64,000 nt of DNA from Gammaproteobacteria bacterium (lineage in GTDB: Bacteria > Pseudomonadota > Gammaproteobacteria > JAABTG01). The translations under genes and the position numbers were made by a program. Each line of letters begins with the position of its first letter. The first letter of the stretch is position 1. The notes under the pieces are model-generated. The model searched no databases, had not been told where the DNA came from, and saw only the letters and a program-made list of their open reading frames with translations. This document shows positions 39,981 through 55,475 of this stretch, piece after piece. The DNA lies in contig JAGNLM010000001.1 in the NCBI GenBank assembly GCA_017999615.1, forward strand, positions 62,001-126,000. Direction: 5' to 3'.

Positions 39981-42839
39981 ATGCCCCGCATCCACGACCT
40001 GCGCCATCCGCGCCCGAACTTTCCCCTTCGCACGACGCTCACCGTGACGGCCCTTGCCGTGACGCTCACTCTGCTGGGCTGTAGTGGGCCGAGCGCCGAG
40101 GAGCACGTACGGCGAGCCCGATCGCAGCACGAGAAGGGTGAGACCCAGGCGGCGCTCATCGAGTTGAAGAACGCCTTGCAGAAGGCCCCGAACAATGCGG
40201 AGGCCCGGCAACTGGCGGGGCTCCTCTATCTCGAGGTCGGGGACGGCCCGGCGGCGGAGAAGGAACTGAAGAGCGCGGAGCGGCTGGGCGTTCCCGAGGC
40301 CGCCCGCCGAGTGCCGCTGACGCGGGCGGCGCTCCTGCAGGGGCGCTACCAGGACATCGTCCAGGCGGCCATCGAGGATGCGGCCCGGGGTAAGACGGGG
40401 TCGGATGACCTCTCTGCCGAGGACGCGGCCACGCTCGACGCCCTTCGCGGTGCGGCGTACGCGGGCCTGGGGAACATCGAGCAGGCGCGGCGCCTCTTCG
40501 ATGCCGCTCTGGCGCGCCAGCCGGGGCAAATCGATGCTCTTGTCGGCACGGCGGTTCTGCACGCGGTGAAGCAGGAGTATGACGAAGCGCGCGAGGCCCT
40601 GAAGCGGGCGCTGGACGCCCAGCCTTCCTCCGCGGAGGCGTGGGCTGTGCTGGGGGAGGTCGAGTTGGTGCAGGGTAATCCAGCTCTGGCCGAAGAGGCC
40701 TTCGGCAAGGCCATCGAGCGGCAGCGTTACGTCAGTCTGGTTCAGGCGAAGCGCGCGCTCGCGCGGGTGCAGCTCAAGAAGTTCGCCGAGGCGGAGGCCG
40801 ACATCAAGTCGCTGAAGGCGGCGGGGCTGAAGGACCACCCCTACGTGGCCTTCGTGGAAGGGGTGGCGTACTCCGCTCAGGGCAAGCACAAGGAGGCGCT
40901 TCTGGCGCTCCAGGCTGCTTCCGCAGCGGCCCCGTCGGACCCGGCGGTCCAGTTTTACCTGGGGGTCACGCACTTGGCGCTCGGCAACCGGGAGCAGGCG
41001 CTCGCCGCCTCGGAGAGCCTCTATGCCCAGGCGCCGAAGTCGGGCGCGGCGCGGAGGGTTCTGGGGGCCGTCCAGATGAGCCGCTCGGACTACGGGAGCG
41101 CGGCGGAGGTGCTCGACGCCGCCCTGCGCGATGCGCCCGACGACCCTGTCCTGCTGCGCATGCTGGCCACGGCGTCGCTGTTCAAGGGGGACGCGGCCAG
41201 GGGACTGGAGTACGCCCGGCGGCTCGCTGCTGCGGAGCCCGGGTCCCGGGTGGCGGCCGATCTGCTGCGCGTCGCCAAGCTGATGGCGGGGGAGAAGCTC
41301 GACGAGCCTGCGACGGTGGCTGGCGGCGGGCTGGGAGGCGGGGGAACCGACGACCCGGACAAGCGGGAGTTCCTGGAGGCCCTGTCGGCTCTGCGCGCGG
41401 GCAAGGTGGCCGAGGCCCTGGAGGCCGCAAAGAAGATGCAGGAGCGCCGCCCCCGGGACGTGGAGGTTCTCAAGCTCCTCGCGTTGGGTCACATGCTCTC
41501 CGGCAAGGGAGACCTGGCGAAGGGCGAGCTGGAGGAGGCACTGAAGATCAAGCCGAACGAGCCCTCCGCCGCCCGTAATCTGGCCCTCCTGGAGGCGCAG
41601 GCCGGGAATCTGGAACGCGCCCGGACCCTTCTGGTATCCGTAACGAAGGCGCATCCCCGTGACGAGCAGGCGGCCCTGCTCCTGGCGGAGGTCGAAGCCC
41701 GCCGCACCGGGCGGGAGGCAGGAGTCGAAGTCCTTAAGGCGGCGCTGGCTCGTCTCCCGTCTTCCCTTGCCGTGCGCGCCGCGCTGGCTCAGGCATACCT
41801 CGGTGCCGGACACCCCGCCTCGGCCCTGACGGTCACCCGGGAGCTGAGCGAGGATCAGCTGGCGGGCCGGCCCGACCTCCTTCTGGTCCACGCCAAGTCC
41901 CAGATGGCCACCGGAGACGTCGTCGCGGCCCAGCGTTCGTTCCAGCGGCTGACCGAGGTCACGCCCCGCTCGGCCGAGGCACGATTCCTCTACGGGGAGA
42001 GCCTGGCGCGTGGCGGGGAGGCGGCGAAAGCCGAGGCGGAGCTCAAGCGTGCCATCGAGATCGACCGCTCCTACCTCCCGGCCCGGGTGGGCGAGGTCAA
42101 CCTGCTGGTCCATCGTGGCCAGGCGGGCAAGGCCCGGGAGATGCTGGCGGGGCTGAGGCAGGAGTTCGGTGAGCGGCCCGAGTTCCTGGAGGTCGAAGGC
42201 TGGGTCGCCTTCCGGTCGGGAGACTACGCGACCGCCACGGAGCGTTTCACCGCCGTCGCCGGCAGCAAGTCGGACTCGGAGTTGACGCTCGGTCTGGCCA
42301 GGTCGCTATGGGCGCAACGGGAGCAGGAGAAGGCCCTGGAGGTCCTGCGGGCTCGGTTGCAGGTCCAGGCAGCCGACCTCCCGGTGCTCATGCAGCTGGC
42401 GGCGAGCTATGTGGCGATGGACCGCCGGCCCGAGGGCATCTCTACCTTCCGCAAAGTGCTCGAATCGTATCCGGACCACGTGCCGGCCCTGAACGACCTT
42501 GCCTGGGTGCTTCAGGACCAGGACCTCAAGCAGGCGCTGACGCTGGCAGAGCGCGCCCATCGCCTGCAGCCAAACAACCCGGCTGTCCTCGACACCCTCG
42601 GCACGCTCCGGGCGAAGGGCGGCGACCTCTCGGGCGGAGCGCAGTTGGTCCGCCGAGCGGTGGAGCTGGCCCCGGACCACCCGCAGATCCAGCTGAACCT
42701 GGGCCGCATCCTCGTCCAGCAGAAGAAGCACGCCGAAGCCCGCGCCGTGCTGGAGGCATTGCTCGCGAAGGTGCCGGAGGCGGGAGTGGAGACGGAGGCG
42801 AGGGCGCTCCTCGGGTCGATTCCCGCGGCCTCGCCCTGA
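39981..42839 (+). CDS. prsT: PEP-CTERM system TPR-repeat lipoprotein PrsT
   Basis: A 952-aa lipoprotein. The signal peptide ends in a lipobox with Cys34 (TLTLLGCSG), followed by more than twenty TPR units through to the C-terminus (for example QAALIELKNALQKAPNNAEA, PNNPAVLDTLGTLRAKGGDL). Length, lipobox and opening (EEHVRRARSQHEKGETQAAL) match TIGR02917, a marker of XrtA/PEP-CTERM genomes. It probably sits in the outer or inner membrane as a scaffold in exopolysaccharide export. Transposase 2 lies directly upstream on the other strand, so a native promoter must fit in about 100 bases. Confidence 0.93.
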   Translation: MPRIHDLRHPRPNFPLRTTLTVTALAVTLTLLGCSGPSAEEHVRRARSQHEKGETQAALIELKNALQKAPNNAEARQLAGLLYLEVGDGPAAEKELKSAERLGVPEAARRVPLTRAALLQGRYQDIVQAAIEDAARGKTGSDDLSAEDAATLDALRGAAYAGLGNIEQARRLFDAALARQPGQIDALVGTAVLHAVKQEYDEAREALKRALDAQPSSAEAWAVLGEVELVQGNPALAEEAFGKAIERQRYVSLVQAKRALARVQLKKFAEAEADIKSLKAAGLKDHPYVAFVEGVAYSAQGKHKEALLALQAASAAAPSDPAVQFYLGVTHLALGNREQALAASESLYAQAPKSGAARRVLGAVQMSRSDYGSAAEVLDAALRDAPDDPVLLRMLATASLFKGDAARGLEYARRLAAAEPGSRVAADLLRVAKLMAGEKLDEPATVAGGGLGGGGTDDPDKREFLEALSALRAGKVAEALEAAKKMQERRPRDVEVLKLLALGHMLSGKGDLAKGELEEALKIKPNEPSAARNLALLEAQAGNLERARTLLVSVTKAHPRDEQAALLLAEVEARRTGREAGVEVLKAALARLPSSLAVRAALAQAYLGAGHPASALTVTRELSEDQLAGRPDLLLVHAKSQMATGDVVAAQRSFQRLTEVTPRSAEARFLYGESLARGGEAAKAEAELKRAIEIDRSYLPARVGEVNLLVHRGQAGKAREMLAGLRQEFGERPEFLEVEGWVAFRSGDYATATERFTAVAGSKSDSELTLGLARSLWAQREQEKALEVLRARLQVQAADLPVLMQLAASYVAMDRRPEGISTFRKVLESYPDHVPALNDLAWVLQDQDLKQALTLAERAHRLQPNNPAVLDTLGTLRAKGGDLSGGAQLVRRAVELAPDHPQIQLNLGRILVQQKKHAEARAVLEALLAKVPEAGVETEARALLGSIPAASP

Positions 42840-42851
42840 GGGGATAGGCTG

Positions 42852-43967
42852 ATGCGCGAGATGCGCAACACGCACGAGGCGCAGGAGGTGCACGAGATGG
42901 ACGAGATGCAAGGCAGGATCCGTGAAGTGCTCCGGCTCGGCACACTGGCCCCGTCCGGGGACAACAGCCAGCCCTGGCGGTTCGTGATGCGGGGAGCGGA
43001 GGTCGACCTCTTCAACGTCCCGAGCCGGGACACCTCCCTCTACAACCACCGCCAGCGCGCCTCGCTGCTCGGTCATGGGGCGCTCGTGGAGAATGTCACC
43101 ATCGCTGGGAGGGCACTCGGGCTCGGCGTGTCGGTCGAGCTGTTTCCCGACACCGGCCAGCCGGACTGGGTCTGCCGCTTCGCCTTCACGCCTTCGAAAC
43201 CGGTTGAGGACCCTCTCTTCTCGGCCATTCCCGCCCGGATCACCCACCGTGGGCCGTACACCGGAACGCCGCTGACCCCTGCCCAAGCCGAATCCCTGAA
43301 GGTCGCAGGTGCTGCCGTCCCGGGGGCCGTGCTCCACCTCGTGACCGGGTCCGAGGAAAGGGCGGCGCTCGCCCATCTGCTGCGCTGGAACGAACGAGTC
43401 GTGTTCGAGAACCCGAACCTTCATCGCTTTCTCTTTGACCACGTGCGCTGGACCCGGGAAGAGGAGGAGCGCACCGGGGACGGGATCCCGATCGACACGC
43501 TGGGCCTGAATCCCCCTCAGAGGCTCGGTTTCCCCGCGCTATCGCGCTGGGGTGTGGTTCGGGCGCTCAATCACGTCGGGTTGTCGGCGGTGGTGGCTCT
43601 CGAGTCGTTGCGGAAGCTGCGTGCCTCGTCCGCGCTGGGGCTAGTGTCGGCCGGCGGCGGTGAGGACCGCGATTTCGTGGTGGCCGGGCGGGCCATGGAG
43701 CGTGTGTGGCTCGAGGCCACCCGGCTCGGGCTGGCCTTCCAGCCCGTCACCGGGATCATCTGCCTGATGGAGCGGGTGGCGGCCGGCGAGCTCGATGGGA
43801 TACCCGCGGGGCACGTGGAGCGCCTCCGGGAGCTTCGGCCGGCCGTGTCGGAGGCCTTCGGGCTGGGCAACAGAACCCCGGCGATGGCGTTTCGTCTCGG
43901 TCCCCCCGTAAAGCCGGGCCGGCTTTCGGCGCGCTTCCCTCTGGAGAGGGTGGTCGACGTTTCCTAG
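42852..43967 (+). CDS. Nitroreductase-family protein
   Basis: A 371-aa flavoprotein-like sequence of the nitroreductase fold. The FMN-binding opening is LRLGTLAPSGDNSQPWRF, with SLYNHRQRASLLGHGALVEN and ITHRGPYTGTPLTPAQ. The C-terminal half has ALNHVGLSAVVALESLRKLR and LGLAFQPVTGIICLMERVAAG. It is longer than classical nitroreductases and looks like a tandem of two half-domains, as in Acg-like proteins. It starts 12 bases after prsT and probably shares its transcript. A redox substrate cannot be deduced. Confidence 0.8.
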   Translation: MREMRNTHEAQEVHEMDEMQGRIREVLRLGTLAPSGDNSQPWRFVMRGAEVDLFNVPSRDTSLYNHRQRASLLGHGALVENVTIAGRALGLGVSVELFPDTGQPDWVCRFAFTPSKPVEDPLFSAIPARITHRGPYTGTPLTPAQAESLKVAGAAVPGAVLHLVTGSEERAALAHLLRWNERVVFENPNLHRFLFDHVRWTREEEERTGDGIPIDTLGLNPPQRLGFPALSRWGVVRALNHVGLSAVVALESLRKLRASSALGLVSAGGGEDRDFVVAGRAMERVWLEATRLGLAFQPVTGIICLMERVAAGELDGIPAGHVERLRELRPAVSEAFGLGNRTPAMAFRLGPPVKPGRLSARFPLERVVDVS

Positions 43968-44367
43968 AAGAGCGGCGAGCCGGGCCTGTCCGTGTCTGCG
44001 GGTGCTGGGGCAGCGCGGTGTCGGGCCGGTTCACAGGGCACCTTGCGCGCTAAGTCGTGGAGGTCGTTGGACTTCGGCCGTGCTTCGGCTGGCCGGGAGG
44101 ACCGGCAGGCGGGCGGGGGAGTCGGGCAAGGTGTCGGGAAGCTTTACAATCGGGGTCCGGGCGGCGTTCTTCGGGCCGAGAAGTCATCTCGAACCGGCTG
44201 TTCTGAAAGGAAAATGTCTTCCGTGGCATGGGGTGTGCTAACGCTTAGGGCACGGAACGTGGGCAACACTCCGCACCGAGAGACGAAAAGCGAGAGTTGT
44301 ATGTCCGGTGCCGAACAGTTACCCCTTACGCTTACGTGATCGACAGCACCTCAACGGAGGCAACCCA
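43968..44367. other. Intergenic region upstream of the PEP-CTERM gene
   Basis: These 400 bases contain no convincing gene. They hold the sigma-54 promoter at 44224-44239, a leader of about 120 bases and a strong ribosome-binding site (GGAGG, 44356-44360, seven bases before the ATG). Confidence 0.6.
44224..44239 (+). promoter_or_regulatory. Sigma-54 promoter of the PEP-CTERM gene
   Basis: TGGCATGGGGTGTGCT has the invariant GG (44225-44226) and GC (44237-44238) exactly ten bases apart and matches TGGCA at -24 and TGC at -12. PEP-CTERM genes are known to be controlled by RpoN together with the PrsK/PrsR two-component system, so the assignment fits its target. Confidence 0.7.
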
Positions 44368-45318
44368 ATGAAGACTTTCCGGAAAAGGGCGCTGACGGTG
44401 GCCGTGACTGCCCTCGTCGCCGGCGTGATGAGCGCACCCGCCCAGGCCTATGTGATGGGCAGTTCCGTCGTCGAGATGACGAACTTCCAGATCAAGGACA
44501 GCGCTGGTGCAGTGCTGGATCACGCGACCGATTTCACGTTCCTGACCTTTACCAGTTCAGCGGACCAGTCCGTTGATCTGACGGGTTACGAGCCCGTCAG
44601 CATTTCCAGCATCTCCGCGCCGATCGATTTCGCCCCCATTTGCCTTGGGGCGGCGTGTAATCCCATTTTGCCGAACAACTCGTTCCCGCACCCCTTGGCG
44701 CCTCCCGCCACCGGAAACTATGTGGCCGCTGATCAGCAGGAATTCGGGGCCCCGATCGACAGCCTTCCCAATTTTCCGGTGGGAGCGACCGTTGCGAGCG
44801 GCTCGTATGTCGGACTCGACACCGGGTTAGAGGTTGCCGGCTCTGCCAACTCGAACAACAATTTGAACTCGAGTTTTGTTTTCGCCGTCAACAACTCACA
44901 GGCTCTGACGTTCACCTTTGACGTTGACGCGTACCTGCAGGTGGCAATCAGCGCGGCTCCCACCGAGACCTATCCGGCCTTCGCGACGGCCAGTTACCAG
45001 ATGGACTTCAGCATCCGCGATCTGGGGACCAACACGCTCGTGTGGACGTATGCACCAGACCTGTTCGGCAACGGTGTTCACACGCTGAGCCTGAATGCCC
45101 CCCTGCCGGCCGACGTGCAGAGCATAGAGCAGACTGCCGGTAACGTGTCGTTTGCCAGCGTAGCGACCCCGGTACTGGCGGCGGGAACGCTCTATCAGCT
45201 TTCTGCGCGTATTCAGACGAATGCAGACGCAGCCCGTGTTCCGGAGCCTGCGATACTCGGTCTGCTGGGGGTCGGCCTGATCGGTCTCGGGGCCGCCCGC
45301 CGGAGCCGCAAGGCCTGA
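44368..45318 (+). CDS. PEP-CTERM sorting-signal protein (exosortase A substrate)
   Basis: A 316-aa secreted protein. It has a signal peptide (RKRALTVAVTALVAGVMSAPAQA) in its first 28 residues and a low-complexity, Ser/Asn/Thr-rich extracellular domain with few basic residues. The C-terminal sorting tail is the motif VPEP at about 294-297, a hydrophobic helix (AILGLLGVGLIGLGAA) and the final RRSRKA. It should be cleaved or processed by exosortase A at the inner membrane and delivered to the surface or the exopolymer matrix. A strong ribosome-binding site, an upstream sigma-54 promoter and a downstream terminator make it a single-gene unit. It is the only substrate seen in this window. Confidence 0.95.
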   Translation: MKTFRKRALTVAVTALVAGVMSAPAQAYVMGSSVVEMTNFQIKDSAGAVLDHATDFTFLTFTSSADQSVDLTGYEPVSISSISAPIDFAPICLGAACNPILPNNSFPHPLAPPATGNYVAADQQEFGAPIDSLPNFPVGATVASGSYVGLDTGLEVAGSANSNNNLNSSFVFAVNNSQALTFTFDVDAYLQVAISAAPTETYPAFATASYQMDFSIRDLGTNTLVWTYAPDLFGNGVHTLSLNAPLPADVQSIEQTAGNVSFASVATPVLAAGTLYQLSARIQTNADAARVPEPAILGLLGVGLIGLGAARRSRKA

Positions 45319-45383: not shown

Positions 45384-45603
45384 TGCGTGTGCGCGGTGCC
45401 CCGCGGCGCGAGGAGCGGTCTGACGCCCCGGGGCACGTCGAGCGCCCGGAGAGGGCGGCACCCCGGGAGCGGTGAGTCAAGGAAACGACTTCAGGTGCCG
45501 ATCAACCTCCAGCCGGACACCGGTGCCTTTCCCCGGCCCTGACCGCGTCGGGCCCCGCCCCCGCGTCCGTCCCGGTCTCTCCCAGTCTCGAGTGAGGTGT
45601 GCC

Positions 45604-46485
45604 ATGCCCAGCCTGCCCGTCCTGAAGACCCTGGCTCGTGAGCTCGTGAGCCGTGAGCGCAGTCCTCGCCGCACCGAGCCGGACCTGGTGATGGACGACC
45701 CCGAGAAGGTGGCCGCCTACACCCGGGCCGGCCGGGAGGACGGGGTCATGGCCCCGGTCTACCTGTTCCACTGCGCCCAGGTGTGTGAGGTGATCCGGCC
45801 CGGGGACACGGTCGTGGACCTGGGGTGCGGGCCGGCGACCCAGCTGGCGATGGTCGCGCGCCTGAGCCCGGACGTGCGCTTCGTCGGGGTGGACCTCTCG
45901 GAGGAGATGCTGGAGCGGGCCCGGGCCTATGTGACCGAGCAGGGTCTCGGCAATGTCGCCTTCCAGCAGGCCGACGTCACCGATCTCGGGTTCCTCGGCG
46001 ACGCCAGCGTGGACGCGGTCTTCTCGACGGTCGCCCTGCACCACCTGCCCGACGTGGGCCACCTGGAACGGACCTTCGCGGAGGTCGCCCGAGTCCTGCG
46101 GCCGGGCGGTGGGCTGTACCTGGTGGACTTCGGGCACCTGAAGTCCGAGAAGTCGATCGAGTACTTCGCTTACCAGTACAGCGACCGGCAGCCCGAGCTG
46201 TTCACGCTCGACTACCTCTACTCCCTGCGGGCGGCGTTCCCGCTCGCGGACTTCCAGCGTCTGGCAGACCGTTACCTGGCGGGCCGGGCCCGGGTGTATT
46301 CCACCTTCCTGATGCCGTTCATGGTCGTGGTGAAGAGCCCGCCGCGGGCCGGCGAGGTGCCGCCGGGGGTTCGTGCCGGGCTGGCCGCGCTGCGCGAGGC
46401 GTTACCCTCCTACCACCGGACGGACCTGAAGGACCTGCGGACCTTCTTCCGTCTGGGCGGGCTCGGAAGTCCCCTGCTGGCCTGA
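45604..46485 (+). CDS. SAM-dependent methyltransferase (class I)
   Basis: A 293-aa methyltransferase with motif I VVDLGCGPATQ, motif II RFVGVDLSEEMLERARAY, and FSTVALHHLPDVGHLERTFA with VLRPGGGLYLVDFGHL, the methyltransferase-11/25 pattern. A basic N-terminal extension (about 1-60) precedes the Rossmann domain. ATG 45604 is the first ATG after the terminator. The substrate is unknown; it converges on the ThiF-like gene and may be unrelated to the polysaccharide genes. Bases 45384-45603 before it hold nothing I recognise. Confidence 0.85.
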   Translation: MPSLPVLKTLARELVSRERSPRRTEPDLVMDDPEKVAAYTRAGREDGVMAPVYLFHCAQVCEVIRPGDTVVDLGCGPATQLAMVARLSPDVRFVGVDLSEEMLERARAYVTEQGLGNVAFQQADVTDLGFLGDASVDAVFSTVALHHLPDVGHLERTFAEVARVLRPGGGLYLVDFGHLKSEKSIEYFAYQYSDRQPELFTLDYLYSLRAAFPLADFQRLADRYLAGRARVYSTFLMPFMVVVKSPPRAGEVPPGVRAGLAALREALPSYHRTDLKDLRTFFRLGGLGSPLLA

Positions 46486-46524: not shown

Positions 46525-47382
46525 TCAGCGGGCGAGCTTGCGTCGGGCGACGGCCAGGGCGACGCGCTGCAGCGGGTTCCGGCTGCCCCACGGGCGCCAG
46601 GTCTGCACCATGCGGTTGCGGTAGGCGTCGAAGTGCAGCCCTCGCGGCGCGGCCACGAGCTCACCGCGTCCCAGCAGGAGCTTCAGGACGTGGGTCGCCG
46701 CCACCCCGGCGCACAGATCGCAGGCCATCGGGGTGGACGGCCCGCGGTGCCGGGCCAGATCGACCGCGGAGGGGTCCGCGAGATAGCCCACCTGGAGCAT
46801 CGCGGGGGAGAGGCCCAGCAGGAAGCGCAGCAGCTGCTCGCGCTCGGGCACGCCGGCCCAGCCGAAGTAATCGTCGGGTGTCATGTGGCCCGGGAGGAAG
46901 GTGAGGAGCGCGACGCCCATCCCCAGGGGGGCGGCGGTGACGACCGGGATGCCCTCCGCCAGCGCGGCGGAGAAGACCCGCCGGCGCATGTCGATGGCGA
47001 AGAAGTCGAGTGCGTCCAGGTAGACGTCGGCCCCCTCGAGGAACTCCCGCACGTTCTCGGTCGTCAGCCCCTGGGGGAATCGGCGCAACTGAAGCTCCGG
47101 GTTGACGTCGAGGGCGAGCTCCGCGAGGACGTCGAGCTTCGGCCGGCCGAGGCTGCGCAGCGTGGCGCCGGCCTGGCGGTTGAAGTTCACGAGCTCGAAG
47201 GTGTCGAGCTCGGCCAGGTTGAACGCGCCGATGCCGAGGCGTGTCAGGGTCAGGAGGTGGCTGCCGCCGACGCCGCCGAGGCCGGCGATGGCGATGCGCT
47301 TGCCGCGCAGGAGCGCCAGCTCCTCCCTCGTGACCCAGCCGATGTTGCGGTCGAAGGCCGTCTCGTAGTCGAAGTCGCCCAT
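46525..47382 (-). CDS. ThiF/MoeB-family (E1-like) adenylyltransferase
   Basis: A 285-aa E1-like protein. It opens DYETAFDRNIGWVTREELAL and carries the ATP-binding Rossmann loop IAIAGLGGVGGSHLLTLTRL, NFNRQAGATLRSLGRPK and DALDFFAIDMRR. A CDLC pair is present near residue 230 but not the full four-Cys zinc site. This subtype lacks an obvious sulfur-carrier partner next to it. It could adenylate a small carrier or peptide; specificity is unknown. ATG 47382 matches the usual beginning of the family, the upstream extension being non-conserved. Confidence 0.85.
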   Translation of the reverse strand: MGDFDYETAFDRNIGWVTREELALLRGKRIAIAGLGGVGGSHLLTLTRLGIGAFNLAELDTFELVNFNRQAGATLRSLGRPKLDVLAELALDVNPELQLRRFPQGLTTENVREFLEGADVYLDALDFFAIDMRRRVFSAALAEGIPVVTAAPLGMGVALLTFLPGHMTPDDYFGWAGVPEREQLLRFLLGLSPAMLQVGYLADPSAVDLARHRGPSTPMACDLCAGVAATHVLKLLLGRGELVAAPRGLHFDAYRNRMVQTWRPWGSRNPLQRVALAVARRKLAR

Positions 47383-47518: not shown

Positions 47519-49021
47519 ATGTACGCTGAGTGCCCTCACTGCCACGCCGTCCACCGGGTCCGGGCCGCGGACCTGCAACTCGCGATGGGCAAGGTCCGCT
47601 GCGGGCGGTGCCACACCGTGTTCGACGGCCTCTCGGCCCTGTGCGACGAGCCCGGGGGCGGGGCGCAGTCTGCGCCGCGGCCCGCGCCGGCTCGCGCCCG
47701 GGCGGAGCGGCAGCGGGAGACCCGTGTCGGCGGCGCCCCCGCGGAGCCGGCGTCCCTCGCCCAGCGGGCCGCCGGGGGGCTTGGCCAGTTCCTGCCCGGC
47801 ATCCTCACCCTCGCCCTGCGCAGCCTCTCGCGCAACCGCGGGCGGACCGCGCTCGGCCTCGCGGCGGTCGCCTTCGGCGTGGTCGCCCTGCTGCTCGCGG
47901 GCGGCTTCATGGAGTGGATCTTCTGGGCGATGCGGGAGAGCTACATCCAGTCCCGTCTGGGCCACATCCAGGTCGCCCGCGAGGGGTACTTCGAGGGCGG
48001 CGTCGCCGAGCCCTTCGCCTACCTGCTCCCCGGGGACTCGCCGGCGCTCGGTGCCGTGTCCCGCGCTCCCCACGTGCAGGCCGTCGCCTCGCGGCTCGCC
48101 TTCGGAGGGCTCGCGAGCCACGGGGAGACCACCATCGCGTTCCTCGGCGAGGGCGTGGAGCCCGACCGGGAACAGGCGGTCTCGCGCCAGCTCACCATCG
48201 AGGAGGGCGAGAATCTCGCCGAATCCGCCGCCGACGGAGTCATCCTGGGGGCCGGCCTCGCGGAGAACCTCGGGGTGAAGCCCGGCGACGCTCTGGTGTT
48301 GCTCGCCACGACCCGAACCGGTGGCGTCTCCGGCGTGGAGGCGCGCGTCCGGGGCCTCTTCCGGACCTCGACCAAGGCCTTCGACGACAGCGTGCTGCGC
48401 GCCCCCATCGAGCTCGCGCGCCGGCTCCTGCAGGTCTCGGGGGCGCACACCTGGGTGCTGCTCCTGGACCGCACGGAGCACACCGACCGGGTGGCGGCGG
48501 ACCTTGCGCGGCGCATCGAGGAGACGGGTGCCTCGGGCCTCACGCTGCGGCCCTGGCACGCCATGACCGACTTCTACCACAAGACCGTGGAGCTCTTCTC
48601 CCGGCAGGTGAACGTCGTGCGGGTGGTGATCGCGCTCATCGTCCTGATCAGCATCTCCAACACCCAGGTGATGAGCGTGCTGGAGCGCACCTCCGAGATC
48701 GGAACGGTGATGGCCATCGGCCACAGCCGCCGGTACGTGATGCAGCTCTTCCTGCTCGAGGGGCTGCTGCTCGGCATCGTCGGGGGGCTGTTGGGACTTG
48801 CGGTGGGCGCCGGTCTTGCCAGGCTCCTTTCGGCGGTCGGCATCCCCATGCCGCCTCCCCCCGGAATGGACGTGGGCTTCTCCGGGGAGATCCTGCTGAC
48901 GCCGGACCTCATGGCCGGGACCCTGGCCGTGGCCGTGGCCAGCACCGCGCTCGCGAGCCTGTACCCCGCCTGGAGGGCCTCCCGCATGGTCATCGTCGAC
49001 GCGCTCCGCCAGGCCCGGTGA
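47519..49021 (+). CDS. Zinc-ribbon fused to FtsX/LolE-type ABC permease
   Basis: A 500-aa inner-membrane protein. Residues 1-40 are an MJ0042-type zinc ribbon (CPHCHAVHRV and GKVRCGRCHTVFDG), followed by a Pro/Ala/Arg-rich linker to about residue 85. The permease has a first helix (about 110-135), a large periplasmic domain (about 140-360) and three C-terminal helices (VVIALIVLISISNTQVMSVL, FLLEGLLLGIVGGLLGLAVG and a last one near 460-480). The permease half belongs to the FtsX/MacB/LolCE group. A zinc ribbon on such a permease is unusual; the same ribbon normally fronts DUF3426 proteins. ATG 47519 places the ribbon at the exact N-terminus. Confidence 0.85.
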   Translation: MYAECPHCHAVHRVRAADLQLAMGKVRCGRCHTVFDGLSALCDEPGGGAQSAPRPAPARARAERQRETRVGGAPAEPASLAQRAAGGLGQFLPGILTLALRSLSRNRGRTALGLAAVAFGVVALLLAGGFMEWIFWAMRESYIQSRLGHIQVAREGYFEGGVAEPFAYLLPGDSPALGAVSRAPHVQAVASRLAFGGLASHGETTIAFLGEGVEPDREQAVSRQLTIEEGENLAESAADGVILGAGLAENLGVKPGDALVLLATTRTGGVSGVEARVRGLFRTSTKAFDDSVLRAPIELARRLLQVSGAHTWVLLLDRTEHTDRVAADLARRIEETGASGLTLRPWHAMTDFYHKTVELFSRQVNVVRVVIALIVLISISNTQVMSVLERTSEIGTVMAIGHSRRYVMQLFLLEGLLLGIVGGLLGLAVGAGLARLLSAVGIPMPPPPGMDVGFSGEILLTPDLMAGTLAVAVASTALASLYPAWRASRMVIVDALRQAR

Positions 49022-49037: not shown

Positions 49038-50249
49038 ATGCTGAAGCTCGCCTTCCGCAACCTCCTCCGCCACAAAGGGCGCACCGCCCTGACCCTGGGG
49101 GCCATCCTGCTCGGCGTCGTGGGGCTCATCCTGAGCGGCGGCTTCGTGCAGGACATCTACGTGCAGCTCCGGGAGTGGACCATCCACTCCCGCCTCGGAC
49201 ACCTGCAGGTCTATGCCGAGGGCCACTTCCACTACGGCCGCCGGCAGCCCTACCAGTACATGGTCGCGGAGCCGGACAGGGTCGCAGAGGGCATCGCGGG
49301 GGTGCCGCACGTGGTCGACGTGCTCCGGCGCGTCAACTTCGACGCCCTGGTCAACAACGGGCGCGGGGACCTTCCGGTGATGGGGGAGGGGGTGGAGCCC
49401 GACAAGGAGGCCCGGCTCGGCAGTGCCCTGCGGATCGTGAGCGGCCGCCAGCTGGCGGCGTCGGACCGGCTGGGGGTCCTGGTCGGGCAGGGGGTCGCCT
49501 CGTCGCTGCAGCTGCAGCCCGGGGACTACGTGACGCTGGTCGCGACGACCGCGGCCGGCTCCATGAACAGCCTGGAGCTCGAGGTCGTCGGGTCTTTCGC
49601 GTCCGTCTCGAAGGACTACGACGCTCGCGCCGTGCGCATCCCCCTCGATGCGGCGCGCGAGCTCCTGGACACCGACGCCGTGCACGCCCTGGTCGTCTCG
49701 CTCGACGACACCCTCGCCACGGAAGCGGTCCGCTCCGCCCTGTCCGCGGTGCTGCCCGCCGGGACCTACGAGGTGAAGTCGTGGGAGGAGCTCGACGACT
49801 TCTACCGCAAGACGGTCGCCCTGTACCGGCGGCAGTTCGGGTTCTTCCAGGTGGTCATCCTGCTCATGGTCCTGCTGAGCGTGGCAAACAGCGTGAACAT
49901 GAGTGCCTACGAGCGCACGGGGGAGTTCGGCACCCTGCGGGCCCTCGGGGAGCGCTCGAGCGGCGTCGTGCGCCTGATCGTGACGGAGAACGTGATGCTC
50001 GGACTGGCGGGGGCGTTGCTCGGAGCGGCCCTGGGGCTCCTTCTCGCCTGGGCCATCTCGCTCGTGGGCATCCCCATGCCCCCCCCACCGAACTCCGACC
50101 TGGGTTACACCGCACTCATCCGCATCGAGCCCCAGAGCGTGCTGCTCGCCCTCGCCATCGGTTTCGGCGCGACCGTGCTCTCCGCCCTGCTGGCGGCCTT
50201 CCGGGCCGCCCGTGTGCCGGTGGTGGACGGACTGCGCTGGAACGTGTGA
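49038..50249 (+). CDS. FtsX/LolC-type ABC permease
   Basis: A 403-aa permease paralogous to the previous gene, without the zinc ribbon. It has an N-terminal helix (LLRHKGRTALTLGAILLGVV), a periplasmic domain (about 50-275) with MGEGVEPDKEARLG corresponding to LGEGVEPDREQAVS of its partner, and C-terminal helices at 275-300, 320-350 and 370-395. The two would form a heterodimeric transporter core with the ATPase at 51248. It starts 17 bases after its partner. Confidence 0.92.
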   Translation: MLKLAFRNLLRHKGRTALTLGAILLGVVGLILSGGFVQDIYVQLREWTIHSRLGHLQVYAEGHFHYGRRQPYQYMVAEPDRVAEGIAGVPHVVDVLRRVNFDALVNNGRGDLPVMGEGVEPDKEARLGSALRIVSGRQLAASDRLGVLVGQGVASSLQLQPGDYVTLVATTAAGSMNSLELEVVGSFASVSKDYDARAVRIPLDAARELLDTDAVHALVVSLDDTLATEAVRSALSAVLPAGTYEVKSWEELDDFYRKTVALYRRQFGFFQVVILLMVLLSVANSVNMSAYERTGEFGTLRALGERSSGVVRLIVTENVMLGLAGALLGAALGLLLAWAISLVGIPMPPPPNSDLGYTALIRIEPQSVLLALAIGFGATVLSALLAAFRAARVPVVDGLRWNV

Positions 50250-50265: not shown

Positions 50266-51078
50266 CTACTGAAGCTTCTTCAGGTAGTCCTTGGTGAAGA
50301 CCTCGTCCGGCAGGTTGCGGCGCTGCATGTTCCGGTACTCCATCACCGAGCGGCTGCCCTTGCGCAGGGCGTCCTCCATCACGAGGCGCGCCGGCCGGGA
50401 CTCGCCCTCCATGGCGCGGAAGTCCTCGTAGCGGCAGGTCTTGAGGAGCCGGTTCGAGAGTGTGTAGAACTCGGCCTTGAAGGGCCGGAAGGAGCCTTTT
50501 TCGACCCAGTAGGTGACCTTGGGGTAGGTCACGCCGCGCTGCGAGGCCTTGAGCTCGAGGACGAAGAGTTCCTTGCGCTCCAGGGTCTCGGTGCGGAGCA
50601 GCGTGGCGTCGTAGTCGCCGGAGAAGTTCGCGCGGGCGAGGTCGCCGTTCGCGACCTGGCCGGTCAACTTCTGTGACAGGGGGAGTCTCACGGGCTGCGA
50701 GACGCTGGGCAGGAAGACCCAGAGGTCGCGCTGGCGCATCAGCATCATCTGACCCTTTTCCGAGGCCGGCGCGGTGGTGAGCACGACCGTGCTCTCCTTC
50801 CCCTTGGAGAGGACGCGGTACTCGTGGACGTCGGTCGTGCTGTCGCCCGGACTCGTCGTCGAGACGTGCACGTCGACCTGGAAGCCGTCCGCCGGGAAAC
50901 GGATGCGGTCGGCCATCTCGACGATGTGGCCGGGGTCCGGGTCCGCCGCGCCCGCCGTGGCCGCCGCGCCCGCTGTGGCCGCCGTGGCCGCTGGCACGGT
51001 GAGAACGGCGACTGCCCCCAGGAGGCACAGGCGGAGAGGGAGTCGGTATGTGAGTGACGCGCTAAATCCGGTTCGCAT
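50266..51078 (-). CDS. Outer-membrane lipoprotein-sorting (LolA-like) protein
   Basis: A 270-aa periplasmic protein. A signal peptide covers about the first 35 residues (LCLLGAVAVLTVPAATAA). It is followed by a LolA/LppX-like half-barrel: VVLTTAPASEKGQMMLMRQR, DLWVFLPSVSQPVRLPLSQK, NGDLARANFSGDYDATLL and ELKASQRGVTYPKVTYWVE. It should carry a lipid or lipoprotein through the periplasm from the ABC transporter to the barrel. It is encoded opposite to, and between, the permease and ATPase genes, an arrangement that leaves one exporter set split by an antisense gene. Confidence 0.9.
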   Translation of the reverse strand: MRTGFSASLTYRLPLRLCLLGAVAVLTVPAATAATAGAAATAGAADPDPGHIVEMADRIRFPADGFQVDVHVSTTSPGDSTTDVHEYRVLSKGKESTVVLTTAPASEKGQMMLMRQRDLWVFLPSVSQPVRLPLSQKLTGQVANGDLARANFSGDYDATLLRTETLERKELFVLELKASQRGVTYPKVTYWVEKGSFRPFKAEFYTLSNRLLKTCRYEDFRAMEGESRPARLVMEDALRKGSRSVMEYRNMQRRNLPDEVFTKDYLKKLQ

Positions 51079-51247: not shown

Positions 51248-51949
51248 ATGAGCGTCGTCCGTGTCGACCACGTCTCCAAGGACTACCGCCTCGGCCGGCA
51301 GACGTTCCGTGCGCTGCACGATGTCTCCCTGGCCGTCGCCAAGGGCCGGTTCCTCGCGATCGCCGGCCCGTCGGGGAGCGGGAAGTCCACCCTGCTCAAC
51401 CTGATCGGTTGCATCGATACGCCCACGGAAGGCCAAGTCTATATCGGCAAGGAAGAGGTGAGCCGTAAGACCCCCGACGAGCTCGCCGATCTGCGGGCCA
51501 GCGCCCTCGGGTTCATCTTCCAGACCTTCAACCTCCTGCCCGTGCTCTCCGCGCGGGAGAACGTCGAGTACCCGCTGCTGCACCGCAAGGAGATCTCACG
51601 CAAGGAGCGCCGGGAGCGGGTCGAGCACTATCTCGGGGTGGTGGGGCTCTCGCGCTACGCTCACCACCGGCCGAACGAGCTCTCCGGAGGCCAACGCCAG
51701 CGGGTCGCGATCGCCCGGGCGCTCGCGGGGAGCCCAGCCATCGTGCTGGCCGACGAGCCCACGGCGAATCTGGACTCGAAGACCGGCGAAGGGGTGCTCC
51801 GGCTGATGAAGAAGATCAACGAGTCCGAGGGGACGACCTTCATCTTTTCGACGCATGACTTCCGGGTCATGGAAATGGCGGACCGTGTGGTGAACATCAG
51901 CGACGGTCGGTTGGTGGGGACTGGGACGGAGGATTCGGGGCATGAGTAG
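51248..51949 (+). CDS. ABC transporter ATPase (LolD/MacB type)
   Basis: A 233-aa ATPase with Walker A GPSGSGKST, Q-loop FQTFNLLPVLSA, signature LSGGQRQRVAIARAL, Walker B IVLADEPTANLDS and the H-loop FSTHD. It is of the LolD/MacB/FtsE class, which fits the two FtsX-type permeases. ATG 51248 is preferred because the longer frame reads through the intergenic region. A possible promoter element TATACT lies at about 51174. It overlaps the next gene by 8 bp. Confidence 0.95.
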   Translation: MSVVRVDHVSKDYRLGRQTFRALHDVSLAVAKGRFLAIAGPSGSGKSTLLNLIGCIDTPTEGQVYIGKEEVSRKTPDELADLRASALGFIFQTFNLLPVLSARENVEYPLLHRKEISRKERRERVEHYLGVVGLSRYAHHRPNELSGGQRQRVAIARALAGSPAIVLADEPTANLDSKTGEGVLRLMKKINESEGTTFIFSTHDFRVMEMADRVVNISDGRLVGTGTEDSGHE

Positions 51950-53426
51950 AACGCAACACACGCTGCTGCCGCTCGCGCTCCTGTGCCTCGCCGCCGGCCC
52001 CGCCCGGGCCGAGGGCCCGTTGTCCCGCGAGGCCCTGTTTGGCCTGCCGCCGGCCGGCACGGCGGCGCCTGCACCCGCACCTGCACCCGCTTCCGCGCCC
52101 GCGCCCGCACCCGCGCCCGTTGCCGGTGCTCCCGCCCTCACCCCGCCGGGTGGAGACGAGAGCCCCGTGACTGCTGAACCTGGCGGACTCGCCGGACCTG
52201 GCGGGTCCGGTGGCCCGAAGGTCTCCGGTTTCCTCCACAGTCAGCTCGCCTACACCTACGGCGGCACGGGGCACTGGTCCCTCTTCCAGAACATGGCTCA
52301 GGTCTCCGCAAGCGGTCGGACCGATGGGGGGATAGGCTGGAAGGTGGGGGCGCGGGCCCAGGTCGACCCGGTCTACGCGGGCAACGACTACTTTCCCGGC
52401 GAGGTCCGCGACAACCAGAAGCATGATGCCTGGGTCTGGGAGAGCTACCTGGACTTCGCCACCGGCCCCGTCGAGTGGAGGGTGGGGCGCCAGCACATCG
52501 TGTGGGGCGAGGTCGTCGCCTTCTACTTCGCCGACGTGGTCTCGTCCTTCGACCAGCGCCAGTTCATCCTGCCCGACTTCGAGCTGAGCCGGCTGCCGCA
52601 GTGGGCCGCGCGCGCCGAGTGGTTCCAGGGGGATTTCCACGCCGAGGCCGTGTGGGTTCCGGTGATGACCTATGACGAGATCGGCAAGCCGGGGGCGGAT
52701 TTCTACCCGTTCCAGCCGGGTGAAACGCCTGGATTCACCACCACGATCCGCGATGAGCGCTTTCCGGACGAGGACCTGGGCAACTCGGGCTATGGCCTGC
52801 GCGCCAACTACCTGACCGGCGGGTGGGACGCCTCGTTGTTCTTCTGGAGCTCTCCGGACCGTTTCCCGGTGTTCAAGCGCAGCGTGAGCCTTGCGCCCAC
52901 GCCGACCATCGCCTACCGGCCGATCCACGAGCGGATCCACCAGTACGGTGGCACGGTGGCCAAGGACCTGGGGCCGTTCGTGGTGAAGGGCGAGGCGATC
53001 TACACCCGGGGCCAGCTCTACGAGACTGCGGACCCGGGGGAGTCGGATGGATTGCTGCGCAGCGACGCGCTCGATTGGATCGCGAGCGTCGAGTTCGCCT
53101 TCGAAAACGAGACGCGGCTCAATCTGCAGTACATCCAGGCCCGCGTCTTCGACCGTGAGCCCGGGATGGTGCAGGATGCCCTGACCAGCGTGGCCACGGT
53201 ATTGTTGAGCACGAAGGCGTTCCACCCCAAGGTGGCGCCCGAGATCCTCTACGCCACGGCGCTCGGCGACACCGACTGGAATCTGCAGGGGCGCGTGACC
53301 TGGGCGTTCCAGCCGAACTGGAGCCTGGTCGGGGGTGTCGACGTCTTCGGCGGAGGCTCGGACGGCTACTTCGGCCGGTTCGAGCACCAGGACCGCGTCT
53401 ACGGGGAGGTCTGGTATCGCTTCTGA
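51942..53426 (+). CDS. DUF1302-like outer-membrane barrel protein
   Basis: A 494-aa protein. A signal peptide (residues 1-23) is followed by an Ala/Pro repeat (PAPAPAPASAPAPAPAPV, about 42-60) and Gly-rich linker, then a beta-barrel. Typical DUF1302 features are SGFLHSQLAYTYGGTGHWSL, WESYLDFATGPVEWRVGRQH, IVWGEVVAFYFADVVS and a C-terminal aromatic residue (WYRF) for BAM recognition. Encoded in one operon with the ATPase, it is probably the outer-membrane receiver of the exporter. The Ala/Pro stretch comes from a DNA tandem repeat near 52065-52125. Confidence 0.88.
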   Translation: MSRTQHTLLPLALLCLAAGPARAEGPLSREALFGLPPAGTAAPAPAPAPASAPAPAPAPVAGAPALTPPGGDESPVTAEPGGLAGPGGSGGPKVSGFLHSQLAYTYGGTGHWSLFQNMAQVSASGRTDGGIGWKVGARAQVDPVYAGNDYFPGEVRDNQKHDAWVWESYLDFATGPVEWRVGRQHIVWGEVVAFYFADVVSSFDQRQFILPDFELSRLPQWAARAEWFQGDFHAEAVWVPVMTYDEIGKPGADFYPFQPGETPGFTTTIRDERFPDEDLGNSGYGLRANYLTGGWDASLFFWSSPDRFPVFKRSVSLAPTPTIAYRPIHERIHQYGGTVAKDLGPFVVKGEAIYTRGQLYETADPGESDGLLRSDALDWIASVEFAFENETRLNLQYIQARVFDREPGMVQDALTSVATVLLSTKAFHPKVAPEILYATALGDTDWNLQGRVTWAFQPNWSLVGGVDVFGGGSDGYFGRFEHQDRVYGEVWYRF

Positions 53427-53467: not shown

Positions 53468-54265
53468 CTAACGGCCGGCGGAGGCCCGAGCGGTCTCCCG
53501 TTCGGAGAACATCCGGCCCCCGTCGGTGAGGAAGTCCCAGATCGCCGGCTGCTCCGTCCGGACCTGCTCCAGGAGCTCGACGCCGTCCCGATAGCACGGT
53601 TGCCGCCGGCCGTGGTACTGCACCGGGGGCCCGGCGGGATGGAAATGGATCCCGAGGCGCCCGAGCAGGCGCAGCAGCGCCGGCATCATCACCGCGCACC
53701 AGTGGGTCACGCCCCGCTCGGTGCTCATGCGGGCGATCTCGCGCATCAGGCCGATAGCCATCGTGGGGATGAGGCGCTGGTCGGTGGGTCCGGAGGTGTC
53801 GTCGCGCGCGACGCTGTGCTCGTCCGGGTAGAGCCCCTCCGACTGCCGGCGGCGGAAGTCCTTGGAGATGGCGAAGCGGGAGATCTCCGCCGTGCTGCCC
53901 GGGGGGAAGGGGGCCCGGCTGCGGCAGACGGCGTGAAACGGCAGGTCGCTCGGCCGGCTGCCATCCGGCAGGATCAGTCGCACGGTGCCCGCGACGTTGC
54001 CCGTGGGGCGGTGCACCAGTAGGGCATGGACCGCGCGCTGGTCGTAGGCGTCGTACTCCATGCGGTCAGGGAAATGCGAGGGGTCTTCGAAGGCGTTCTC
54101 GACGCAGTACACCTGGTAACGCAGGCGGAACGCGGCCTCGCGCAAAGCCGGGGTGTCCGCGCGGACCATGGTGAAATACTGCTCGTACACCTCCGCGAGA
54201 CTGGGGGGTGCGGGGCTCGGGTTCGTCGTCACAGCGTGCTCCGGTGCGGGACGGTCGCCTCTCAT
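53468..54265 (-). CDS. PEP-CTERM/exosortase system-associated acyltransferase 1
   Basis: A 265-aa acyltransferase of the autoinducer-synthase/FeeM-like GNAT group; its features match the exosortase-associated family TIGR03694. These are LREAAFRLRYQVYCVENAFE, ERGVTHWCAVMMPALLRLLG and RFAISKDFRRRQSEG. Such enzymes probably link a fatty acyl group, possibly from an ACP, to an amino compound. The start is ATG 54265; a shorter start is possible since the first 20 residues are non-conserved. It is divergent from a second member at 54711. Confidence 0.9.
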   Translation of the reverse strand: MRGDRPAPEHAVTTNPSPAPPSLAEVYEQYFTMVRADTPALREAAFRLRYQVYCVENAFEDPSHFPDRMEYDAYDQRAVHALLVHRPTGNVAGTVRLILPDGSRPSDLPFHAVCRSRAPFPPGSTAEISRFAISKDFRRRQSEGLYPDEHSVARDDTSGPTDQRLIPTMAIGLMREIARMSTERGVTHWCAVMMPALLRLLGRLGIHFHPAGPPVQYHGRRQPCYRDGVELLEQVRTEQPAIWDFLTDGGRMFSERETARASAGR

Positions 54266-54463: not shown

Positions 54464-54559
54464 GGCCTCAGAAGTCTCCCATCCGGTGGATAGCGCCGGG
54501 CCCCAAAGACAGTGAGATAGGGCCATTCGCTGATGACCTGTCCAAGCTTTTGTGACGCA

Positions 54560-54575
54560 TGGCGCATTTTTTGCC
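54560..54575 (+). promoter_or_regulatory. Sigma-54 promoter of acyltransferase 2
   Basis: TGGCGCATTTTTTGCC has GG (54561-54562) and GC (54573-54574) ten bases apart and the typical T-run before TTGC. It lies 135 bases upstream of ATG 54711 and excludes the longer frame starting at 54552. Confidence 0.75.
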
Positions 54576-54710
54576 TATATTCTGCTGCCCGGTGCCGGGG
54601 AGGGGCGCGCGATCCGCGTCGCTGGGGAGCCTCGGGCGGTGACCGGTGCGTTGCAGTGCGGTCACGGCGTGGGTGAATCGGTGAGAGTGCGGGGCAAGAG
54701 GGGGTGCCGC

Positions 54711-55475
54711 ATGGAGACCAAGCCAGCATTGGGGGCATTTGCGCTGAATGCTCATCCCTACGAGGCGGTCATCGCGGACACCGAGCCGAGCAGAAGTATT
54801 GCGTACCGCCTGCGGTATCAGGTCTATTGCCTCGAAACGGGCTTCGAAGACCCGCTGCACTTCGATACGAAGGAGGAGTCGGACGAGTTCGACGCCCACT
54901 CCATCCATTTCCTGATCCGCTGCACCAACACCGGTGGATGGCTCGCCAGCGCCCGTCTGGTGATCCGGCAGGAGCAGGGACCTCTCCCCGTGGAGAGTCA
55001 CTGCCGGATTGATCCGGCCCGTCTGGGCGCGCTCAGCCGCCCCGATGGCGAGGTCTCTCGGCTCCTGATCGTGCGTCGCGACCCCCTGGTCGGGCCGGTG
55101 AGCCGGTTCGAGGCGGAGGGACTCCTGAGCGCCCGTACCGAGATGCTGCGCCGCCTGTTGATCGGGCTCTGCTCGCGAGCCCGAGACCTGGGTCTTCAGA
55201 ACCTCGGGTTCTTCCTGGCTCCATCGCTGAAGCGCGTGTTGACCCGGCTGGGGATCGAGGCCCGCCTGATTGGGGACGCCTGTCATCACCGGGGGGTGCG
55301 CCATCCCTACCTCGGAAACGTCACCCAGGCGCTTGAGGCCCTCTACGCACACGGGCCGGCGACACCCGGCGTCGAAGAGGTCAACGAGCCCTATCGCCTG
55401 TATTCCCAGCTGGACCTGCCGTTGGCTCGCGCCGTGCCGTTCGCGGCGGCACGCCTGGGGTCGACCTCGGTCTGA
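54711..55475 (+). CDS. PEP-CTERM/exosortase system-associated acyltransferase 2
   Basis: A 254-aa second member of the TIGR03694-like group: RSIAYRLRYQVYCLETGFED, SARLVIRQEQGPLPVESHC, GEVSRLLIVRRDPL and LGFFLAPSLKRVLTRLGIEA, with LPLARAVPF at the end. It is moderately similar to the divergent gene at 53468, including the shared RLRYQVYC core and the following Glu. The start at 54711 is supported by the sigma-54 promoter upstream. Having two family members under apparent RpoN control links them to PEP-CTERM expression. Confidence 0.88.
   Translation: METKPALGAFALNAHPYEAVIADTEPSRSIAYRLRYQVYCLETGFEDPLHFDTKEESDEFDAHSIHFLIRCTNTGGWLASARLVIRQEQGPLPVESHCRIDPARLGALSRPDGEVSRLLIVRRDPLVGPVSRFEAEGLLSARTEMLRRLLIGLCSRARDLGLQNLGFFLAPSLKRVLTRLGIEARLIGDACHHRGVRHPYLGNVTQALEALYAHGPATPGVEEVNEPYRLYSQLDLPLARAVPFAAARLGSTSV

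Follow-up and report, generated by a model that had tools for sequence, protein, structure and literature searches.

An MJ0042-type zinc ribbon fused to a LolC/LolE-like permease in an exosortase A/PEP-CTERM locus

Type VII ABC proteins use ATP hydrolysed in the cytoplasm to drive work in the periplasm; within this superfamily LolCDE hands lipoproteins to LolA, and MacB bears an N-terminal ATPase that lies on the cytoplasmic side (PMC5985334). Here we analyse perm1, a permease of this kind that is joined to an N-terminal MJ0042-type zinc ribbon. A ribbon ahead of a membrane segment has a reported counterpart in GltJ/AgmX of Myxococcus, which is said to carry a cytoplasmic N-terminal MJ0042-like ribbon, then a tether and a membrane helix, and to use the ribbon for docking; our literature search gave no confirmation of this docking ribbon. 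The fusion offers a conserved, checkable case in which a LolC/E-like transporter carries a small adaptor domain. It also draws attention to a transport cassette linked with the exosortase A/PEP-CTERM surface system, the export steps of which are, to our knowledge, poorly understood.

The DNA analysed (the window) is a 64,000-nucleotide stretch of a gammaproteobacterial contig and is an exosortase A/PEP-CTERM locus (Table 1). The XrtA/PEP-CTERM locus markers TIGR03109, NF041538 and TIGR02917 all score above their cut-offs in it, and XrtA amidotransferase and hydrolases 1 and 2 are also encoded. The fusion gene is accompanied by perm2, the presumed partner of perm1, which adjoins perm1 in relatives as well; by a LolA-like protein closely related to NE2245 (PDB 3buu; E 4.9e-85); by an ATPase whose best NCBIfam match, LolD, reaches 215.6 bits, below the cut-off of 307.75; and by a DUF1302 protein that we take to be an outer-membrane barrel.

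Table 1. Features of the window around the fusion gene, with the evidence for each assignment (model scores in bits against the model cut-off)
Feature	Position	Strand	Evidence
Exosortase A (core region)	483-1190	+	TIGR03109, 340.5 vs 208
PrsT, XrtA/PEP-CTERM system TPR protein	39981-42839	+	TIGR02917, 548 vs 312.2
Acg/Rv1355c-like nitroreductase	42852-43967
PEP-CTERM protein, EDSAP-1 family	44308-45318	+	NF041538, 197.5 vs 100
Methyltransferase	45472-46485
Divergent E1-like ThiF family protein (PRK08223)	46525-47382	-	NF006077, 422.9 vs 266; start inferred from model match at residue 47
perm1 fusion ORF	47519-49021	+	500 aa, one frame
MJ0042-type zinc ribbon	47519-47638 (residues 1-40)	+	TIGR02098 and PF13717 above cut-off
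Linker, Ala/Pro/Arg-rich, flexible	47639-47800 (residues 41-94)	+	pLDDT, low identity
perm1, LolC/LolE-like permease	47801-49021	+	PF12704, PF02687, hydropathy, Foldseek
perm2, second permease, no ribbon	49038-50249	+	PF12704, PF02687
LolA-like protein	50266-51078	-	PF17131, 170
ABC ATPase, LolD/DevA-like	51254-51949	+	PF00005; start inferred from model match
DUF1302 protein	51942-53426	+	PF06980, 62.6 vs 23.2
PEP-CTERM/exosortase-associated acyltransferase	53468-54265	-	TIGR03694, 256 vs 111.95
Second PEP-CTERM/exosortase-associated acyltransferase	54552-55475	+	TIGR03694, 123.3 vs 111.95

The association of these genes extends beyond the window. Of 33 distinct stretches from relatives, 22 contain the genes for both permeases, the LolA-like protein and the ATPase, sometimes in a different order; in several f92 genomes, and likewise at the Dechloromonas, Azonexus and Thauera loci, the stretch showed only part of this set, in some cases owing to contig ends. 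The stretch from Dechloromonas denitrificans ATCC BAA-841, for example, showed neither the ATPase gene nor the LolA-like one, whereas Plasticicumulans lactativorans DSM 25287 has every member of the cassette. An exosortase (TIGR02602, E<=0.001) is encoded by all 13 carriers of perm1 and by 105 of the 356 other genomes (Fisher 2.3e-7), a test that is descriptive because related genomes are not independent; judged by size and genome handles, the exosortase and perm1 counts apparently come from one sample. In the window the LolA-like gene runs on one strand and the ATPase gene on the other, and the same holds for 24 of 24 stretches in which both are present (two places counted twice). Genes for the ThiF-like protein (PRK08223) and the nitroreductase are found near perm1 in many relatives, and both proteins match parts of PRK14851, which hints at a shared pathway.

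The ribbon–permease fusion is confirmed as a genuine single protein. Its ribbon passes the cut-offs of TIGR02098 (MJ0042_CXXC; 46.9 bits versus 20.9, residues 1-37, NCBIfam scan) and of Pfam Zn_ribbon_4 (PF13717; 37.2 versus 30.3, residues 1-36) and falls under that of Zn_ribbon_5 (27.2 versus 29.3). Cysteines 5, 8, 28 and 31 form two knuckles of presumed metal ligands, and from its sequence the ribbon probably binds zinc. The permease part matches MacB_PCD (PF12704, residues 110-331) and FtsX (PF02687, residues 367-490), both above cut-off, and hydropathy analysis gives four hydrophobic stretches (108-138, 359-389, 406-443 and 464-482), the first two of which flank the periplasmic core domain, as in the topology of MacB and Lol permeases. 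The single frame and these model scores bear out the first-pass annotation, which had described a four-Cys MJ0042 ribbon fused before an FtsX/LolE-like permease. In an AlphaFold2 model of the fusion (17 alignment rows; mean pLDDT 79.0, pTM 0.62) the permease part is mostly confident, and the ribbon consists of four short strands with pLDDT 67-78 by blocks, from an alignment with only three other ribbon rows. The model supports the disorder that had been proposed for the linker (pLDDT <50 at residues 47-90), but the linker is about 54 residues long, counted from residue 41 to where homology with unfused orthologues begins, rather than the 45 claimed.

The pairing of the two domains had been described as absent from standard families, and among the Pfam and NCBIfam models matched in our scans none spans both ribbon and permease. 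The DUF3426 model PF11906 has no match in the fusion protein at E<=0.1, and the best solved structure for the ribbon reached an E value of 0.25, which is no useful match. Searches of the titles and abstract starts of open-licence PubMed Central papers returned nothing on a ribbon–permease fusion and likewise nothing on exosortase systems with a Lol-like cassette. The fusion is thus a known ribbon and a known fold in a pairing not found in the matched models or the searched literature.

Ribbon and permease share one frame, but translation could start downstream so that the ribbon is absent from the mature protein. In-frame CTG codons at 92 and 100 (another lies at codon 41) could serve such a start, and by eye no Shine-Dalgarno sequence was seen close to the ATG. 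Against this, the starts available before the permease are a TTG two codons ahead of ATG 1, ATG 1 itself, ATG 23 and GTG 34, and after codon 34 there is no in-frame ATG, GTG or TTG until GTG 121, which sits within the first hydrophobic stretch; moreover, the ribbon codons are under selection. We consider a downstream start very improbable. An annotation or frame artefact is ruled out by the start-codon layout, selection and conservation.

We compared pairs of fused genes to assess selection on the ribbon. In three pairs, ribbon codons 1-40 show 0 nonsynonymous and 5+2+9 = 16 synonymous changes. In the first of these, the window against its same-genus relative G001, codons 1-40 hold 5 synonymous and 0 nonsynonymous changes and codons 1-47 hold 8 and 0, the synonymous codons 41, 45 and 47 lying outside the ribbon and so not being counted; codons 48 and 49, where the G001 contig ends, show nonsynonymous differences. 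In the two other pairs the linker has a dN/dS of about 0.76 and about 0.27 and the permease of about 0.1 and about 0.03. Across 11 fused sequences (one of each near-identical pair, G286 and G074, left out) mean pairwise identity is 0.57 for the ribbon, 0.56 for the permease and 0.23 for the linker, the length of which ranges from 54 to 135 residues in these sequences (55 to 136 by another reckoning). The linker part directly after the ribbon is nevertheless alike in several fused proteins, which favours common descent.

The four ribbon cysteines are invariant in 13 of 13 fused proteins, the first knuckle being Cx4C in two of them (G291 and G292). Also invariant in the alignment of 11 are Met1 (GTG-coded in some), Leu19, Met23-Gly24, Phe35 and Leu38. 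The Met-Gly pair ahead of the third cysteine is present in all 13 fused ribbons and in none of 42 distinct other MJ0042 ribbons among the matches listed (43 loci, of which L056 and L096 are one place), and this exclusiveness points to a specialized surface. In library scans of 10 fused relatives every one exceeds the cut-off of a ribbon model in one library or more (5 of 6 in Pfam, where L120 fails both ribbon models, and 8 of 8 for TIGR02098), and both permease domains are above cut-off in 6 of 6 (Pfam). The ribbon is thus kept by selection in several bacterial families. A functionless fusion, left by a rearrangement and carried along passively, would suit the patchy distribution described below, but it is largely refuted already by the selection data: the ribbon codons accept no nonsynonymous change while the linker changes, and the four cysteines and Met-Gly are retained across three family groups. 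We regard it as scarcely credible.

A search for the domain pair in other genomes, as the first-pass annotation had proposed, found the pair in one open frame in 12 genomes besides that of the window (G000), giving 13 intact fusions in three family groups. Within a class sample of 369 genomes, a close perm1 (E<=1e-105) occurs in 13: six are ribbon-fused (G000, G003, G074, G203, G095 and G279), six lack the ribbon (G025, G085, G209, G313, G345 and G346) and one, G339, has an RND extension. The order to which G095 belongs has 36 genomes in the sample; matches at E<=1e-60 occur in 9, every one of them fused. The window's own order is represented by five genomes. Two of these, G000 and G003, carry the fusion, and two, G002 and G004, lack a close orthologue (best E 1.5e-23 and 6.0e-29). 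In the fifth, G001, perm1 is split between contig ends, with the ribbon at one and the last 24 permease residues at another; a fusion is likely here too. In a phylum sample of 398 genomes only G000 and G654 have matches at E<=1e-60, and perm1 of G654 has no in-frame ribbon. A scan of 84,980 species, one genome each, used exact short peptides and so reaches close relatives only; it returned 18 loci, three of them ribbon matches (one being the G001 contig end) and 15 with permease, comprising 13 whole perm1 genes (12 without extension and one RND-fused) and two cut ones.

The tree was built from 31 complete perm1 sequences, 13 ribbon-fused, two RND-fused and 16 neither; it left out L051 and L053 (perm1 cut by a contig end), L058 (ribbon end only), and L041 and L044, which duplicate L149 and L065. 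On this tree two changes are needed to explain the fused label, but a single fused clade is not rejected (p-AU 0.359), so the fusion may have arisen once or more than once. Two findings had been named in advance as speaking against the fusion, orthologues that start near residue 95 and the ribbon as a separate gene in relatives, and the outcome is mixed. In the 16 unfused orthologues, and in G654 as a 17th, the permease frame is without a Cys4 ribbon, and the 16 have little or no room before residue 95. A profile of the 13 fused ribbons, however, found no separate ribbon gene at E<=1 in 22 unfused neighbourhood stretches (frames of at least 30 residues in 302,409 bases; the set includes both RND-fused loci, two loci where perm1 is cut and two places counted twice, L041/L155 and L044/L146). 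A separate neighbouring ribbon gene where the fusion is absent is thereby ruled out for these stretches, and 13 genomes keep the fusion.

The RND fusions are single frames of 1603 residues in Plasticicumulans lactativorans (L042:2401-7209) and 1618 residues in G339 (L153:5400-10253), with RND parts that are 41% identical over 1029 columns; L042 alone has an extra segment with weak TPR similarity (17.6 bits versus a cut-off of 25). Since the ribbon is missing from at least 16 orthologues and an AcrB-type RND transporter stands in its place in two, it is an accessory, and the perm1 N-terminus looks like a site for accessory modules. Ribbon-less orthologues are at least as common as fused ones, so the ribbon is dispensable for basic function.

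The fused ribbon was probably drawn from the pool of DUF3426-type proteins. Of the 42 other ribbons, those of G001 and G003 were scanned, and both belong to separately encoded DUF3426 proteins. Each of these two genomes has two MJ0042 matches, and at least two are listed for each of G074, G203, G095 and G279. In G000 the fused ribbon is the one MJ0042 match at E<=0.001. The missing match for the DUF3426 protein of G001 and G003 could reflect loss or an assembly gap.

By sequence, perm1 is a type VII ABC (MacB superfamily) permease of the LolC/LolE-like kind. The best solved match in Foldseek is LolE of LolCDE (9rld_E, E 4.3e-24), the best PDB match by phmmer is again LolE (2.1e-15), and LolF is also among the best by sequence. 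LolC/E proper is ruled out: perm1 reaches 107.4 bits against the TIGR02212 (LolC/LolE equivalogs) cut-off of 362.45, and another permease of the genome passes it with 478.9 bits. Because the genome also has this canonical LolC/E-type permease, the perm1 cassette is a second, Lol-like system. The model of FtsX, a cell-division protein, gives perm1 35.2 bits versus a cut-off of 255 (TIGR00439).

On the reading that we prefer, perm1 would be one of two permeases in a Lol-like type VII ABC transporter of the exosortase A/PEP-CTERM surface system, and in some lineages an MJ0042 ribbon has been joined to its predicted cytoplasmic N-terminus. Given the homology to type VII proteins and LolCDE, the cassette is expected to extract a lipid-linked substance from the inner membrane, and the ribbon, on a flexible tether on the ATPase side, may bring a partner from the cytoplasm to the transporter. 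Since the domain is short and conserved while its long tether drifts, a docking arm is the best reading, and the free length of the linker suggests docking rather than levering. From such sequence features, docking of a partner protein is probable; the complete proposal, a structural Cys4-zinc docking module on perm1 of an exosortase-linked Lol-like transporter, we hold to be evenly poised.

Among the functions first suggested, partner recruitment is retained, and sensing of zinc or redox state that gates export is less supported, the linker being variable and weakly conserved. As a switch, the ribbon would unfold on loss of zinc or oxidation of its cysteines and so alter transporter activity. 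The invariance of all four cysteines would fit, as would the gene for a nitroreductase-family flavoprotein near perm1 in the window and in many relatives, but the long, variable linker speaks against a direct conformational link, no gene for metal handling is prominent among the scanned neighbours, and Cys4 ribbons are usually structural; we judge a switch to be quite unlikely. The ribbon might alternatively stabilize or position the transporter as an assembly aid by binding its own ATPase or perm2. It is conserved as strongly as the permease, and the ATPase of MacB is likewise N-terminal and cytoplasmic (PMC5985334); unfused orthologues with a related ATPase and perm2 nevertheless do without a ribbon, and an assembly role seems unlikely to us.

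For the preferred docking module, a possible partner, and at this stage a lead, is the methyltransferase. Of 20 window genes traced in relatives none tracks the fusion fully, and the methyltransferase comes nearest: it lies near 7 of the 13 fused perm1 genes (the window, G095, G278, G281, G286, G287 and G292) and also occurs in G001, it was found in none of the 22 unfused stretches, and it was not seen in the stretches of G003, G279, G280 (3.3 kb only), G291, G074 and G203.

A broader and more speculative possibility, which we advance with considerable doubt, is that exosortase A systems own a Lol-like outer-membrane route, on which the ribbon arm captures an enzyme and so couples synthesis to export. 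Such a route would comprise the two permeases, the ATPase, the NE2245-type LolA-like carrier and the DUF1302 protein. Its cargo would be an acylated surface product of the neighbouring acyltransferase, E1-like and nitroreductase-like enzymes, and the enzyme captured in some lineages would be one of these cytoplasmic enzymes or the methyltransferase near some fused genes.

Compared with known systems, perm1 shares the PF12704 and PF02687 domains and the four hydrophobic stretches of MacB and FtsX but scores far below the cut-offs of both models. With LolCDE and LolDF it has in common the permease fold and topology, and its locus encodes a LolD-like ATPase and a LolA-like protein; unlike these systems, it has an N-terminal ribbon, an exosortase locus and a DUF1302 protein. 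The MJ0042-DUF3426 proteins of G001 and G003 carry a ribbon of the same family at their extreme N-terminus, as the fusion does, but are without the Met-Gly of the fused ribbons and end in DUF3426 where the fusion has a whole ABC permease. The RND-FtsX fusions share the perm1 orthologue, extended N-terminally in one open frame, but the added part, some 1200 residues in total, is an AcrB-type transporter, with the TPR-like segment in L042 only, and has no ribbon. GltJ/AgmX, with its ribbon, tether and membrane helix, belongs to a gliding machinery, whereas the ribbon described here is fused to a transporter.
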